Assembly: GCF_023638035.1 (NCBI RefSeq)
Contig: NZ_JAKRVX010000001.1
Location: forward strand, 372,001-436,000
DNA length: 64,000 nt
DNA from: Natronocalculus amylovorans
GTDB taxonomy: Archaea; Halobacteriota; Halobacteria; Halobacteriales; Haloferacaceae
Direction of reading: 5' to 3'
Part shown: piece after piece, positions 21,891 through 26,765 of the stretch
Layout: each line of letters begins with the position of its first letter
How positions within the stretch are numbered: the stretch's first letter is position 1
Program-made: the position numbers and the translations under genes
The notes under the pieces: generated by a model
Told to the model about the DNA's origin: nothing
What the model saw: the letters and a program-made list of their open reading frames with translations, nothing else
Databases searched by the model: none

Positions 21891-22025
21891 ATGTCTGAAT
21901 CAACGATGAAATCGTACTTGGCGGACCACCCACGAATGATCGGCGCAGTGTTTATGATGCTGTTGCTACTGACACAAGCAGGGAATGCAGCAGCGGGACC
22001 GATCACCATTATTTCTGGACCGTAA
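21891..22025 (+). CDS. 44-residue single-span peptide (DUF7503-like)
   Basis: The frame encodes MSESTMKSYLADHPRMIGAV followed by a leucine/methionine-rich hydrophobic segment (about residues 17-34) and a short tail ending in ISGP. I recall haloarchaeal DUF7503 peptides of similar length, with a YLA-x-HPR-M start, one hydrophobic span and a GP end; not verified. The hydrophobic span could be a membrane anchor or a signal-peptide-like segment. Its 3' end overlaps the convergent CHAT gene by 17 bases. No function is established. Confidence 0.72.
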   Translation: MSESTMKSYLADHPRMIGAVFMMLLLLTQAGNAAAGPITIISGP

Positions 22026-24162
22026 GATCCTGAATAGAATTAATATCGTTGCTCCAATATAGTTGATGATTGAACAAAATAGGGATCTCGTTTGTGGATA
22101 ACAGAGAATCAATTGTTGGTGTGTCAAGCTGATATTTACAACCGGTAGTTGAGCTTAAATAGTGTTTTTTATTATTTTTAATACCTGGAGACATGAGTGT
22201 CCCCATTCCCTCAGTGTGGGTTGTATAAGATTCAAAGCTTACATCTAAACAAGACTCTGTTTCAATTATATTAAAAATGATAGGTATACCACTAACAGGC
22301 TGTGCAATGGTTAAACCGCCATCTCCAATAACAATATAGTCAGTCCCACTCACACTATCTATTCTTGCGATATCAAGCGCTGGACGAAATGGAAAACCAC
22401 TATTGAGTAGTTTTGCAATTGTGGAACCAATTTGTACTGCGCCACTATTTATGACGTCAGTGAGTGTTGCGATACCTGCAATGGCGCCCGCATCAAGTAA
22501 GGCCATTCCTTGGTCGTATGACTGGCAGGCATTAAGAAAGAATGAATCAATACCGGTCGTAGAGAGTGATCGTACATCAAATAGACCATCAGTGCATCTG
22601 AACCCATCTGTTTCAATATGTCCAATATAATGTAGAAAATCTGAATCTTCAACCAACACATCACGGAGTCCATCGCAAGTGAGGTTTTGATACAAAGAAA
22701 TTTCGAATGGGAGATCTGCACGTGATCCGTATACAGCATCAACAATGGCATGTTCCTGTACCATCTGTGGATCATTGCAGACGACGGTGATTGAGATATC
22801 GCCGTCCATCACTGCCCGATCAAGTCGGTTTTGGTACGCTGCAAGCGTTGGTTTACTCGCACCGATCGGTGTTTCCTCCCCGATCCAGGCCTGTTCAAGT
22901 GAATCTGTTGTCTCTGGTTGAACAAATGAGTTTGAAAGGTGACTTGCAGAAGAGCTCCCACTGTGCCGCGTGAACTCTCCTGCGTCTAGTGGTTTATCTC
23001 GAAGAAAGTCTGCGACGATTTCGGAATCAGTTGGCTTGCTTGACACGGGTGTTGTCGTAGTTGGTGTCCGAAGAATTGCAAGATCATTCACCAAGAATGG
23101 GAGCATCTCCATACTATCCGGAACAGGATCAATATGTGTAGTAAGTTTCCATGCAGGAACGTATGGTTCTACCACAGTATATGGTATGGAGAGATACTGT
23201 TCTAAACGGGACGCAATTGACTCATCGTAGAGCGTTTGGAAATCAAGATTGACAACGGATTCAATCGCTGATCGCTCATGCAACGTAACGGGATACAATC
23301 CTTCAGTTCGGGTGACACAGTCAAGTAAAAAGGTCTGTTTGAGGAGTTCTTCAATAGTCTGTTCAAATGCAAGGCCGTCCCCTAATTCGTACTCAAATCC
23401 CGTTTCTGTAACTATGCGTGGTGTATCTGCGGGTCTAACGGTTGCACCAAGGTAGTATACAAGCGGTGCGATAGGGTACAGATACTTGAAATCAGGAGGT
23501 ATTTCGATTGTAATTCCGGTATTGGGTGGTTGAAGACCGCTTGGAATAAGAAGCTCATCTCCACGTTTGATCGTTGGCGGGTGTCCTCTGAGCGTTGGGT
23601 ATGATCGCTCAGGGGACGTTGTTTTAAGCGCAGACCCAAAGGTAGACATTACAGCCATCAAATCATGTGGGTCGCTTGTTGTAGTGATCGTTGCTGCAGG
23701 CCGTTCATGCTTCGATCGCGCACCGATTACAACAGGTGTTGCTGATCCAAACGAAACCGTGGTTTCTGCACACGTTGAAGAAATGGTCACAGGAGCAGTG
23801 ACACGAAGGTATAGTTTGATTGGAGTGCAAAGTTCTATACTGTACGTATCCGCGGGCAACTCCTCAGAAGCGAAATGGCCGGTTTGAGCAACCATTTGGC
23901 CGGTGTCATCACGGACACAAATACTCACGACTGTTGAAAGGTTAATTGAGCGAATCTGCGTAGCAACAGCATTGTCAACGGGGAATTGGAATCTAGTAAT
24001 ATCTGCAGTCGTAAGTGATACCGTAGGAACCGCAGTAAAATGATACTGTCTTCGCTCGATGCGATCAGAGACTTGTATTGTTTCGTTACCAATAGTATCG
24101 AACCTGACGCTATCACTCCCGTCTAGTTGCTCAGCGACGACGCCAGGATCATTCTGTGACAT
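22009..24162 (-). CDS. CHAT-domain (caspase-like) protein
   Basis: 717 residues. The C-terminal third carries a CHAT-type peptidase core: HYIGH (histidine 515 the likely catalytic residue) and FFLNACQSYDQG (cysteine 546), followed by AGAIAGIATLTDV, the usual post-cysteine helix. The N-terminal about 480 residues are beta-rich, without TPR repeats or a signal peptide, and I recognise no domain. CHAT proteases act in cell-death and defence pathways in other prokaryotes; the role here is unknown. The gene is AT-richer than its neighbours (many ata/tat codons), suggesting horizontal transfer or relaxed selection. It lies next to a HalX regulator gene on the same strand. Confidence 0.82.
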   Translation of the reverse strand: MSQNDPGVVAEQLDGSDSVRFDTIGNETIQVSDRIERRQYHFTAVPTVSLTTADITRFQFPVDNAVATQIRSINLSTVVSICVRDDTGQMVAQTGHFASEELPADTYSIELCTPIKLYLRVTAPVTISSTCAETTVSFGSATPVVIGARSKHERPAATITTTSDPHDLMAVMSTFGSALKTTSPERSYPTLRGHPPTIKRGDELLIPSGLQPPNTGITIEIPPDFKYLYPIAPLVYYLGATVRPADTPRIVTETGFEYELGDGLAFEQTIEELLKQTFLLDCVTRTEGLYPVTLHERSAIESVVNLDFQTLYDESIASRLEQYLSIPYTVVEPYVPAWKLTTHIDPVPDSMEMLPFLVNDLAILRTPTTTTPVSSKPTDSEIVADFLRDKPLDAGEFTRHSGSSSASHLSNSFVQPETTDSLEQAWIGEETPIGASKPTLAAYQNRLDRAVMDGDISITVVCNDPQMVQEHAIVDAVYGSRADLPFEISLYQNLTCDGLRDVLVEDSDFLHYIGHIETDGFRCTDGLFDVRSLSTTGIDSFFLNACQSYDQGMALLDAGAIAGIATLTDVINSGAVQIGSTIAKLLNSGFPFRPALDIARIDSVSGTDYIVIGDGGLTIAQPVSGIPIIFNIIETESCLDVSFESYTTHTEGMGTLMSPGIKNNKKHYLSSTTGCKYQLDTPTIDSLLSTNEIPILFNHQLYWSNDINSIQDLTVQK

Positions 24163-24218
24163 TCAGCTATCCATGAAATTACGTACCAAGAGCAAAAAGA
24201 TACCGGCGAACCGCTCAG

Positions 24219-24800
24219 TTATCGTGTAAACTCATGTAATAGTGCCGAGATTTCTGGAGACGGATCGTCAGCATCATCGATCAACTCGCTAACGTGAGCC
24301 GAAAGTGATGCAACACGATCTTTTGCCTCCTGATATGTTGGATCATTCTCATGGGGGCGTGGACCACATTCTTGTTCAATTGCCTGTAATTTCATTGAGA
24401 GGGCAAAATACTCTCGGACGCAGGAATTGAATGTACGAAGTGCCAACAACCGATCGACAGCGATCGACACAGTCTCGCTGGTTACTGGCTTACATAAGTA
24501 TGCATCGAGAGGGCCTGAAAGAATATCTGTTGTGGGAACATCGGCACTAATCATTGCGATCGGGCACGGAGACTGTGCTCTGATCTCTGTTGCGACGTCT
24601 GTGCCGTCCACATGAGGCATCCGTTTATCTAGTAGAACCGCGGAAATGTCCGAATCAAACTTTTTGATGGCTTCTTCACCATCGCTTGCAAGCCGTACAT
24701 TCCATTTGTTGCCGAGCCAGATTCGATACAGCTCTCTGAGCCCTGGCTCATCTTCTGCAACAAGTATTGTCCCACTTGGTGGGGTGCTATCGGCTAACAT
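24219..24800 (-). CDS. response regulator with HalX domain
   Basis: 193 residues. An N-terminal receiver domain is complete: acidic pocket VAEDEPG (about 15-20), phospho-acceptor Asp58 in AVLLDKRMPHVDG, the S/T switch in ISADVP, and lysine in LCKPV. The C-terminal 70 residues form the helical HalX domain of haloarchaeal regulators (FALSMKLQAIEQE...YQEAKDRVASLSAHV). No DNA-binding domain is seen, so output is probably by protein contact. The start is 56 bases upstream of the CHAT gene on the same strand; its kinase is not in this window. Confidence 0.92.
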   Translation of the reverse strand: MLADSTPPSGTILVAEDEPGLRELYRIWLGNKWNVRLASDGEEAIKKFDSDISAVLLDKRMPHVDGTDVATEIRAQSPCPIAMISADVPTTDILSGPLDAYLCKPVTSETVSIAVDRLLALRTFNSCVREYFALSMKLQAIEQECGPRPHENDPTYQEAKDRVASLSAHVSELIDDADDPSPEISALLHEFTR

Positions 24801-24922
24801 ATAACTGCGGCCTGTCTGCTGAATATGTTATCACAAGAGGTTATGTATCTTACTCTCGTCCGACTACCGGTGACCGTCAGCACAACCTTTATCAACATAT
24901 CACGTGATTCACAAATGAAACG

Positions 24923-25642
24923 ATGCGACCAGACGGCTCGGACCGTCAATCTGCAGAGTCCCGAGCGGTAGGTCTCATCACCGAGTTAGACAACCTGAAG
25001 CGAACAGGCTCTAATCTACTTATTGTTGGTAAAAGTCGTCATACTGCACATCCAAAGGCATGTACGTCACTGCTTGGATCAGATGACGCGGGGCCACGAC
25101 ACCGTCTGTTTGTTACCATAGACCCGACAACAATAGTTGAAAACCGTCTCAAATATACCGCATCTGAACGAGTTGACAGTAGTCTGGGGGTGATCAAATA
25201 TACACAGCTAGCACGTGGCAGTGCAGTCACATCAGCACAAGAACAATCCCTTACACGCCCATCAAAACGAGAGGCCTATGCTGAAGATATTGGCGCAGTT
25301 GGTATTGAACTCTCAGAACAGATTGCTCAGATAGAAGCCGCACACGGGAGACTTGCACCCGCAGCCCTTCGCGTGTGTATTGACTCTGTCATCCCGCTCT
25401 TCGAGTCGTATGATCAAGAGATTGTGTTCCGATTCCTCAGGCTTGTTACCGATCGAATCAGAAGTGTACACGGGATGGGACATGTCCACATTCAGACTGA
25501 TCGAGATGCTCGATATGTAAAACTGATCGAGCCACTGTTTGACGCAGTTATCGAGCTTAAACAAGAAAATGGGTCTGTCTACCAGCAGTGGGACCTCAGA
25601 GAGAGTGGTCTCTCAACAGACTGGCTCGAAGTCTCCGAGTAG
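24923..25642 (+). CDS. DUF7504-like protein (RecA-superfamily-like, degenerate P-loop)
   Basis: 239 residues. The N-terminus reads LITELDNLKRTGSNLLIVGK, then SRHTAHPKACTSLLG, which resembles a KaiC/RecA-type strand-loop-helix in which the Walker A GxxGxGKT is not preserved. Later strands LRVCIDSVIPLFE and HVHIQTDRD, and the DAVIELKQENGS...WDLRESG end, fit the haloarchaeal DUF7504 pattern as I remember it. In haloarchaea this family often lies beside HalX regulators. It is divergent from the HalX gene (122-base shared upstream region). Function unknown; a regulatory role is inference. Confidence 0.75.
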   Translation: MRPDGSDRQSAESRAVGLITELDNLKRTGSNLLIVGKSRHTAHPKACTSLLGSDDAGPRHRLFVTIDPTTIVENRLKYTASERVDSSLGVIKYTQLARGSAVTSAQEQSLTRPSKREAYAEDIGAVGIELSEQIAQIEAAHGRLAPAALRVCIDSVIPLFESYDQEIVFRFLRLVTDRIRSVHGMGHVHIQTDRDARYVKLIEPLFDAVIELKQENGSVYQQWDLRESGLSTDWLEVSE

Positions 25643-25685: not shown

Positions 25686-26765
25686 ATGTGTGACGTGCAG
25701 ACAGATCACCGCGTATTTGTGGGTGATTCTCGTTCGTTATCGGCAGTGCCAACCAGTTCTGTTGAGCTTGTCATCACCTCACCTCCGTACCCCATGGTTG
25801 AATTATGGGACGACTTATTTACAGAGCTGTCACCAAGCGTCGGTGATGCGTTATCAGCAGGCAACGGCCAAGTAGCATGTGAGCAGATGCACGCCGAACT
25901 CGATCGTGTGTGGGACGAGGTATCTCGGATCTTGGTTGATGGCGGTATTGCGTGTATCAATATTGGTGATGCAACACGATCGATCGACAACTCCTTCCAA
26001 CTATTTGCAAATCACGCACGAATTATCCAAGCCTTTAAATCGCGTGATTTCACTGTCCTCCCTGATATCCTTTGGCGAAAGCCGACAAACAGGGGAACAA
26101 AATTCATGGGCTCAGGAATGGTCCCACCAAACGCATACGTGTCTCACGAACACGAATATATACTCATTTTCCGAAACGGTCGTGTCACCAGATCGTTCGA
26201 GCCAAATGCATCCGATCGGTATCAGGCAGCGTATTTTTGGGAAGAACGTAATCGTTGGTTTTCAGATGTTTGGACGGATATTCGAGGGGCGACACAGGTA
26301 GGAGACGACGCTGATGCACGGGAACGGACAGGTGCGTACCCGTTTGAGATTCCGTATCGACTCATCCACATGTATTCCATATACGGTGATACCGTAGTAG
26401 ATCCGTTCTGGGGAACAGGGACAACAACGCTTGCAGCGATGGTATCGGGACGAAATTCGATCGGTTCGGAGCTGCGTGAATCCTATGTCGATCGCTTCTC
26501 AGACCGCATCGAGTCTGTTGTGGAATTGTCGGAAACCGTGGCACGCGATCGCCTCGTCGCTCATAAAGAGTTTGTCGCACAACAGCGAGCAGAGAGCGAG
26601 ACCCCTGCATACGAGGCAGAAAATTATGAGACGCAGGTTGTGACAAAGCAAGAACGTGGAATGCAACTATACACCATCTCGGATGTAGCTGAAACAGCGG
26701 ATGGATATACAGTTGATCATAAGCCTGTTCGATCAATTAAAACGCAAGATCAAAGCAGTGTTTAG
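25686..26765 (+). CDS. site-specific DNA methyltransferase (probably N4-cytosine, CTAG-type)
   Basis: 359 residues. The catalytic motif TSPPY (residues 31-35) comes before the SAM-binding motif DPFWGTGTTTLAA (about 238-250), giving beta-class order; an SPPY motif is typical of N4-cytosine enzymes. No restriction gene is adjacent, so it looks solitary. Haloarchaea widely carry an orphan CTAG methylase (Zim), and length and sequence fit that group, but specificity cannot be read from sequence alone. Its 3' end overlaps the convergent M32 peptidase gene by four bases. An alternative is an N6-adenine enzyme of the same class. Confidence 0.85.
   Translation: MCDVQTDHRVFVGDSRSLSAVPTSSVELVITSPPYPMVELWDDLFTELSPSVGDALSAGNGQVACEQMHAELDRVWDEVSRILVDGGIACINIGDATRSIDNSFQLFANHARIIQAFKSRDFTVLPDILWRKPTNRGTKFMGSGMVPPNAYVSHEHEYILIFRNGRVTRSFEPNASDRYQAAYFWEERNRWFSDVWTDIRGATQVGDDADARERTGAYPFEIPYRLIHMYSIYGDTVVDPFWGTGTTTLAAMVSGRNSIGSELRESYVDRFSDRIESVVELSETVARDRLVAHKEFVAQQRAESETPAYEAENYETQVVTKQERGMQLYTISDVAETADGYTVDHKPVRSIKTQDQSSV

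Follow-up and report, generated by a model that had tools for sequence, protein, structure and literature searches.

A tail-to-tail gene pair of a CHAT protease and a short peptide in haloarchaea, possibly acting as receptor and ligand

The 64,000-nucleotide stretch of Natronocalculus amylovorans analysed here (assembly GCF_023638035.1, contig NZ_JAKRVX010000001.1, positions 372,001 to 436,000; hereafter the window) carries at 21891-25642 four neighbouring genes, encoding a 44-residue DUF7503 protein, a 717-residue CHAT protease, a receiver-HalX regulator and a DUF7504 protein. As judged by gene order across the haloarchaeal class, the conserved unit is a pair, DUF7503 and CHAT, lying tail to tail and near-obligate in both pairing and orientation. 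We propose that the pair encodes a protease and its cognate short peptide ligand, in a module resembling a pheromone and its receptor, a reading to which we give a probability of about one half. The active part of the precursor would be its short C-terminal tail, mostly Gly-Pro-ended, and where a hydrophobic leader and its AxA motif exist, their part would be delivery, by membrane insertion or by secretion, and not that of an effector. CHAT would recognise the tail, probably via its C-terminal domain, and the tail would control the protease as a ligand, the protease taking the receptor place of a transcription factor.

All four frames that a preliminary description of this DNA had placed in the locus are present at the positions it gave, and a 17-nucleotide tail-to-tail overlap of the peptide and CHAT genes, at 22009-22025, was missing from it. 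The pair comprises the following features.

21891..22025, + strand: DUF7503 small precursor gene, 44 residues (Pfam PF24335, alignment of 81 relatives)
Residues 1-35 of that product: leader with HPR motif, hydrophobic segment and AxA, followed by the 9-residue tail
21996..22022, + strand: variable C-terminal tail GPITIISGP with conserved Gly-Pro end (identity and ratio of non-synonymous to synonymous polymorphism, pN/pS)
22009..24162, - strand: CHAT protease, 717 residues, convergent with the peptide gene (profile, structure, class-wide convergence)
23068..24108, - strand: CHAT N-terminal beta domain (residues 19-149) and alpha/beta domain (158-365), from AlphaFold2 secondary structure
22303..22797, - strand: caspase-like (CHAT) catalytic domain, residues 456-620 (model secondary structure and PDB fold matches)
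22618..22620, - strand: codon of the catalytic His515, invariant among relatives
22525..22527, - strand: codon of the catalytic Cys546, invariant among relatives
22012..22302, - strand: CHAT C-terminal domain, residues 621-717; the part matching it in one genus is hypervariable and varies together with the peptide tail

The survey covered 145 genomes of the haloarchaeal class, with counts resting on whole-genome searches instead of a scan of genome contigs, which gave three loci. CHAT relatives occur in 131 genomes and DUF7503 in 120, each time together with CHAT; no genome has DUF7503 alone and 14 have neither (Fisher p 4e-13, the genomes not being independent). Among the located pairs, DUF7503 is found at the CHAT 3' end, facing it from the opposite strand, in 132 of 133 cases, usually at most 120 nucleotides away, and once their loci were fetched the remaining 17 DUF7503 genes all proved to have a convergent CHAT gene within 261 nucleotides, bringing the overall figure to 149 of 150. 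Conversely, 145 of the best 150 CHAT matches have a DUF7503 gene and two further ones a tandem-repeat gene ending in Gly-Pro (GP). Near-universal convergent placement and the co-occurrence test together rule out chance adjacency. No CHAT relative was found in viral contigs, which leaves a viral origin without support.

Taken alone, the 717-residue protein matched nothing in Pfam, NCBIfam or PADLOC, and the Pfam CHAT family PF12770 was matched weakly by 11 of 39 relatives (best E 0.0048), no other family being matched. Its identity as a CHAT protease, with proteolysis as the predicted activity, is confirmed by modelled fold and motifs and not by a Pfam cut-off. The AlphaFold2 model (mean predicted local distance difference test score 86, predicted template modelling score 0.88) matched SAVED-CHAT 8tl0 best in the PDB (4.8e-8), along with separase 5fby (9e-8), the gingipain entries 4ief and 1cvr, and procaspase-3. 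This fold comparison was needed, as CHAT and DUF7504 profiles gave nothing useful against the sequences of solved structures. The motifs HYIGH and LNAC-S hold the catalytic His and Cys in the expected order, and H515 and C546 are kept in all 85 close relatives with residues at those positions, so that the catalytic pair named in the preliminary description is borne out by invariance and by a caspase-like model. Neither the protein nor its relatives matched TPR in Pfam, the model consisting of a beta domain and the caspase-like fold; from long alignments with gingipain and separase, the alpha/beta domain may be a pseudo-protease domain.

The small protein belongs to PF24335 (E 6e-21, 74.1 bits against a curated cut-off of 27), and its frame in the window has a single possible start, with an in-frame stop ahead of it. 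An alignment of 81 DUF7503 proteins shows a conserved leader, HP[RK]M..LFT..LLLSQAG, an AxA-like motif and a short variable tail, mostly with a terminal Gly-Pro. Pairwise identity is 59% in the leader core and 17% in the tail, and reaches 92% in the final two residues. The same pattern appears in the genus g2, where pN/pS is 0.135 in the leader, 0.56 in the tail and 0.05 in the last three codons. Conservation for reasons at the DNA level was rejected, since synonymous positions at the Gly-Pro end vary freely, with synonymous polymorphism (pS) of 0.69 in g2 DUF7503 and 0.54 in a second type of small gene, described below, in the genus g22. The low pN/pS of the last codons, combined with free synonymous change, argues that the Gly-Pro end is under protein-level selection; with the PF24335 match, it also upholds the earlier view of the short frame as a conserved protein. 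Regions upstream of DUF7503 resemble, by inspection, leaderless haloarchaeal promoters.

Two side observations concern the same protein. The 13 DUF7503 proteins without a Gly-Pro end (e.g. L092, L094, L100, L134) end in NGG-x-x-x and often stand with a longer DUF7504 (405-461 residues), and the distribution of GP and non-GP tails tracks the CHAT tree with four changes. In the g2 leader, many codons show no synonymous change (pS 0.29 against 0.78 in the tail; window 21891-22025, loci L145-L174); a constraint beyond the protein is possible there, though the CHAT body is similarly low.

The most direct evidence on which part of the precursor matters comes from the genus g13. All 12 of its CHAT genes have a convergent GP-ended frame, the stops overlapping by four nucleotides. 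Three species retain DUF7503 with an SGP end (e.g. ...GTVAASNGGGISGP), and the other nine of the twelve, without a hydrophobic segment, have 2-14 units such as TADGNGGGISGP in tandem; part of the L376 array is masked. The tandem-repeat genes start like MSE[RS]DSGTV and variants, similar to the first residues of the species that keep DUF7503. Because most g13 species lost the span and amplified the tail, and because the g22 partner described below also has no span, the comparison suggests that the function retained lies in the tail and not in the membrane span. These observations disfavour the preliminary description's view of the short peptide as a membrane partner or effector.

The g13 arrays also bear on a reading in which the product of the small gene acts as a regulator while still nascent: its Gly-Pro-stop would stall the ribosome, as SecM does, and so sense membrane insertion or secretion. 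Like SecM, which has a Gly-Pro end, the small protein has Gly-Pro directly before the stop, with a hydrophobic segment upstream and last codons constrained as protein. Yet the linked CHAT gene is convergent and not downstream, and neither the internal GP units in tandem nor the lost span fits, which makes stalling very improbable.

Nucleotide diversity in g2 adds a second line of evidence. It is ~0.1 in the leader and 0.05-0.2 in the catalytic part of CHAT, and rises to 0.37-0.62 in the tail and CHAT C-terminus, a hypervariable block of ~270 nucleotides made up of the peptide tail and the last ~80 CHAT codons. Synonymous and non-synonymous divergence both jump at its edges. Relaxed constraint alone is an unlikely cause of the variable CHAT end, as synonymous divergence also climbs from ~0.3 to 0.8, a rise that fits old alleles introduced by recombination. 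Tail distance correlates with that of the CHAT C-terminus (r 0.49, p 0.002) and hardly with that of the CHAT body (0.11) or of its own leader (0.10); the covariation remains with the body controlled (partial Mantel p 0.0005) and without the tightest clade. Class-wide, the partial correlation has the same sign but is weaker (r 0.17, p 0.001), against -0.005 for the leader. Such covariation may reflect recognition between tail and CHAT C-terminus, and the shared variable block would offer a simple reason for the kept tail-to-tail order, since both specificity ends could be swapped in one recombination. The hypervariability is not universal: in g22 the block stands out less clearly, and the DUF7503 tails there are conserved.

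Among CHAT relatives, clade A is linked to DUF7503, clade B is a second catalytic clade, and further groups are catalytically dead; the putative S1-pocket residue is Asn572 in clade A and Asp in clade B. Many clade-B genes have a convergent short frame with a Gly-Pro end and no DUF7503 match. Its motif, R-V-S/T-S/T-Y-G/S-G-P-stop (type KRVSTYGGP), occurs in 70 of 121 genomes of one family, the reversed pattern having no matches, and 28 of 30 examined loci with such a gene have a convergent clade-B CHAT. In g22, each of 29 genomes has exactly one. This small gene comes with a TATA-like box; its product is conserved at both termini, most strongly in the last nine residues, and nearly unconstrained in between (pN/pS in g22 0.028 for the last nine codons, 0.875 immediately before them). 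In g22 it lacks the hydrophobic segment. By inspection, a hydrophobic stretch and AxA-like motif are present in DUF7503; tandem-repeat and clade-B precursors have neither.

Presence of a partner follows catalytic competence. GP-ended convergent frames accompany 86 of 121 catalytic CHATs and none of 35 non-catalytic ones, counts that include some loci chosen for having DUF7503; in the set fetched for having no listed DUF7503, the figures are 20 of 37 catalytic against one of 33 dead. Neither set of counts is phylogenetically independent. The dead paralogs form two separate clades in the CHAT tree and carry real substitutions; second copies in L091, L095, L200 and L221, counted as non-catalytic, show mere active-site gaps.

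Several individual loci are worth recording. In L091, L095 and L221 the tandem second CHAT copies, which show no catalytic segment in the alignment, stand beside an intact CHAT and one DUF7503. The source genome itself encodes a second CHAT-family protein (L251, G000:C2:549514-556605) of 703-704 residues; its catalytic Cys region is replaced, and it lacks a convergent frame with a GP end. At G115:C4:178411-178965 and G253:C1:161024-161575, two RV(S/T)TYSGP motifs lie ~500 nucleotides apart in opposite orientation; the G115 pair adjoins a single clade-B CHAT, an arrangement that would suit duplication and inversion of the small gene. Genes ending in RVSTYGGP or RVSSYGGP at L280 (G118) and L272 (G043) have no detectable CHAT within 1.5 kb, and at G117:C2:154866-157082 the CHAT gene matched as two separate pieces beside an intact RVSTYGGP motif.

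The restriction of the small gene to catalytic CHATs would also suit a dedicated substrate, as in Craspase or gasdermin systems, cut for instance at a conserved R/K (HP[RK]M; KR-VSTYGGP) to release a product acting at the membrane or elsewhere. Clan CD proteases often cleave after basic residues; 78 of 81 DUF7503 proteins have one before the hydrophobic segment, and the R within the clade-B motif is conserved in g22. Nevertheless, CHAT is kept where the span is absent (g22 clade-B partners and the nine g13 species), so that a membrane product is not required, and strong selection acts on the tail end, beyond the possible cut site. We regard a substrate role as rather unlikely.

An inhibitor or antitoxin-like protein, whose Gly-Pro tail would occupy the active-site region as securin does on separase and whose loss would free the protease, seems less probable again. 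Separase is among the nearest folds, the small gene showed a promoter-like region of its own in those families that were examined, and it accompanies catalytic and not dead paralogs; even so, several catalytic CHATs have no recognisable partner, and tandem amplification and cassette-like variation are less expected of an inhibitor.

For the ligand reading, we infer physical recognition, the role of the tail as ligand and not as substrate or inhibitor, its passage out of and into cells, and what the protease brings about. Several points weigh against it. No peptide-uptake system was linked to the module, and clade-B and tandem-repeat precursors carry no evident secretion signal, which speaks against one shared export route. 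Strong tail hypervariability is seen in one genus, g2, with g22 tails conserved, and pN/pS of the variable tail remains below 1. Since tail and CHAT C-terminus are direct neighbours on the DNA, joint recombination alone would suffice to yield their covariation. The 13 DUF7503 proteins without Gly-Pro lie mostly in one part of the tree, and for roughly half of the catalytic CHATs that have no DUF7503, no clear partner was seen. As CHAT is a protease, a substrate or inhibitor role for the peptide would be equally natural.

The two other genes of the locus stand in a looser relationship to the pair.

24219..24800, - strand: receiver-HalX protein, same strand as CHAT and upstream of it (PF00072 and PF08663, both above cut-off)
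24923..25642, + strand: DUF7504, KaiC-like fold with degenerate P-loop, divergent here (PF24336, 1.6e-49)

The families that the preliminary description gave for the short peptide (DUF7503) and for DUF7504 are correct, as Pfam confirms, and it had rightly taken the regulator for a receiver with HalX. Its degenerate RecA-like protein corresponds to DUF7504, whose model matches the KaiC CI domain (4.9e-9, template modelling score about 0.55); at the P-loop position, degenerate in this and related loci, the Walker A pattern GxxxxGK[ST] is absent. Among 87 CHAT loci, ~80 have a convergent peptide gene, 33 have DUF7504 directly upstream on the CHAT strand and ~17 have a HalX gene nearby in varying positions; the window's order, with HalX between CHAT and a divergent DUF7504, is unusual. 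For catalytic clade-B CHATs (27 rows), neither was detected within 1.5 kb. Because they are present at only part of the loci, HalX and DUF7504 are, by this distribution, optional neighbours of the CHAT-peptide pair, and the single four-gene system first proposed is rejected. Co-occurrence beyond chance holds for peptide and CHAT. The preliminary description had named chance co-occurrence, catalytic residues missing from an alignment of homologs and a short frame not conserved as protein as findings that would count against it; for the peptide-CHAT pair, none of these was found. At loci that carry them, signal input via HalX or DUF7504 is possible. Next to DUF7504, at 25686-26765 (+ strand), lies a DNA methyltransferase of the N4/N6 type (PF01555, 5.9e-36; PADLOC MTase_II model, 8.7e-161).

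A role in defence, raised at the outset, is unsupported. The PADLOC scan, which covered five window proteins, matched none of the four, and the search of viral contigs found no CHAT relative. Defence genes are usually patchy in their spread, unlike a CHAT family found in 131 of the 145 genomes.

Several known systems bear comparison with the module. CHAT proteases (PF12770; SAVED-CHAT, Csx29 of Craspase; clan CD) share the caspase-like fold and the His/Cys pair, but the haloarchaeal CHAT has no TPR or SAVED match, its own N-terminal beta domain, a variable C-terminal domain, a dedicated convergent small gene and class-wide spread. Group III SHP genes are convergent with rgg and overlap its end (PMC13361665), and RRNPP propeptides of 21-50 residues, at intergenic ranges of -50 to 191 bp, often show intragenic duplications (PMC10075063). 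The module resembles RRNPP systems, especially group III Rgg-SHP, in its two adjacent genes and in a small propeptide with a putative C-terminal functional peptide. It differs in that the candidate receptor is a caspase-like protease with no TPR or helix-turn-helix found, in being archaeal and in a tail usually ending in Gly-Pro. The receptor candidate being a protease in which TPR was not found, the module does not belong to the RRNPP family. Separase and securin likewise combine a clan CD protease with a dedicated protein partner, securin-like inhibition being hypothetical here; unlike securin, the haloarchaeal partner has ~44 residues and is encoded tail to tail. Inactivated KaiC-like (iKaiC) domains have been described in archaeal signalling (PMC5847659), and DUF7504 shares their KaiC fold and degenerate P-loop but is an optional CHAT neighbour.

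The open-access literature yielded no paper on DUF7503, nor on the CHAT domain together with haloarchaea, which is weak evidence of absence. What appears to be undescribed is the module itself, together with its GP-ended partners and its cassette behaviour; its components belong to known families or folds. In Haloferax volcanii, caspase-like activity was reported without gene homologues, as measured on Asp-ended caspase substrates (PMC3615174). The searches in that species covered DUF7503 and DUF7504, both of which it encodes, and CHAT proteins of the present kind would be candidates for the activity.

A wider extension of the ligand reading is possible but doubtful: a class-wide system of haloarchaeal peptide communication or kin recognition, where mostly Gly-Pro-ended peptides would control caspase-like proteases, tail and protease C-terminus would be exchanged as a pherotype cassette, and tandem amplification could occur. 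The analysis unites an uncharacterised CHAT family with two families whose function is unknown, found in most of the 145 haloarchaeal genomes, into one testable module, which includes small genes without DUF7503 homology found solely through their conserved last residues. Haloarchaeal cell-cell signalling is described as largely unexplored (PMC10223598), and the module provides concrete candidates for it as well as for the caspase-like activity of Haloferax volcanii. If the wider reading is true, it would represent an archaeal peptide signalling system with a protease as its receptor.

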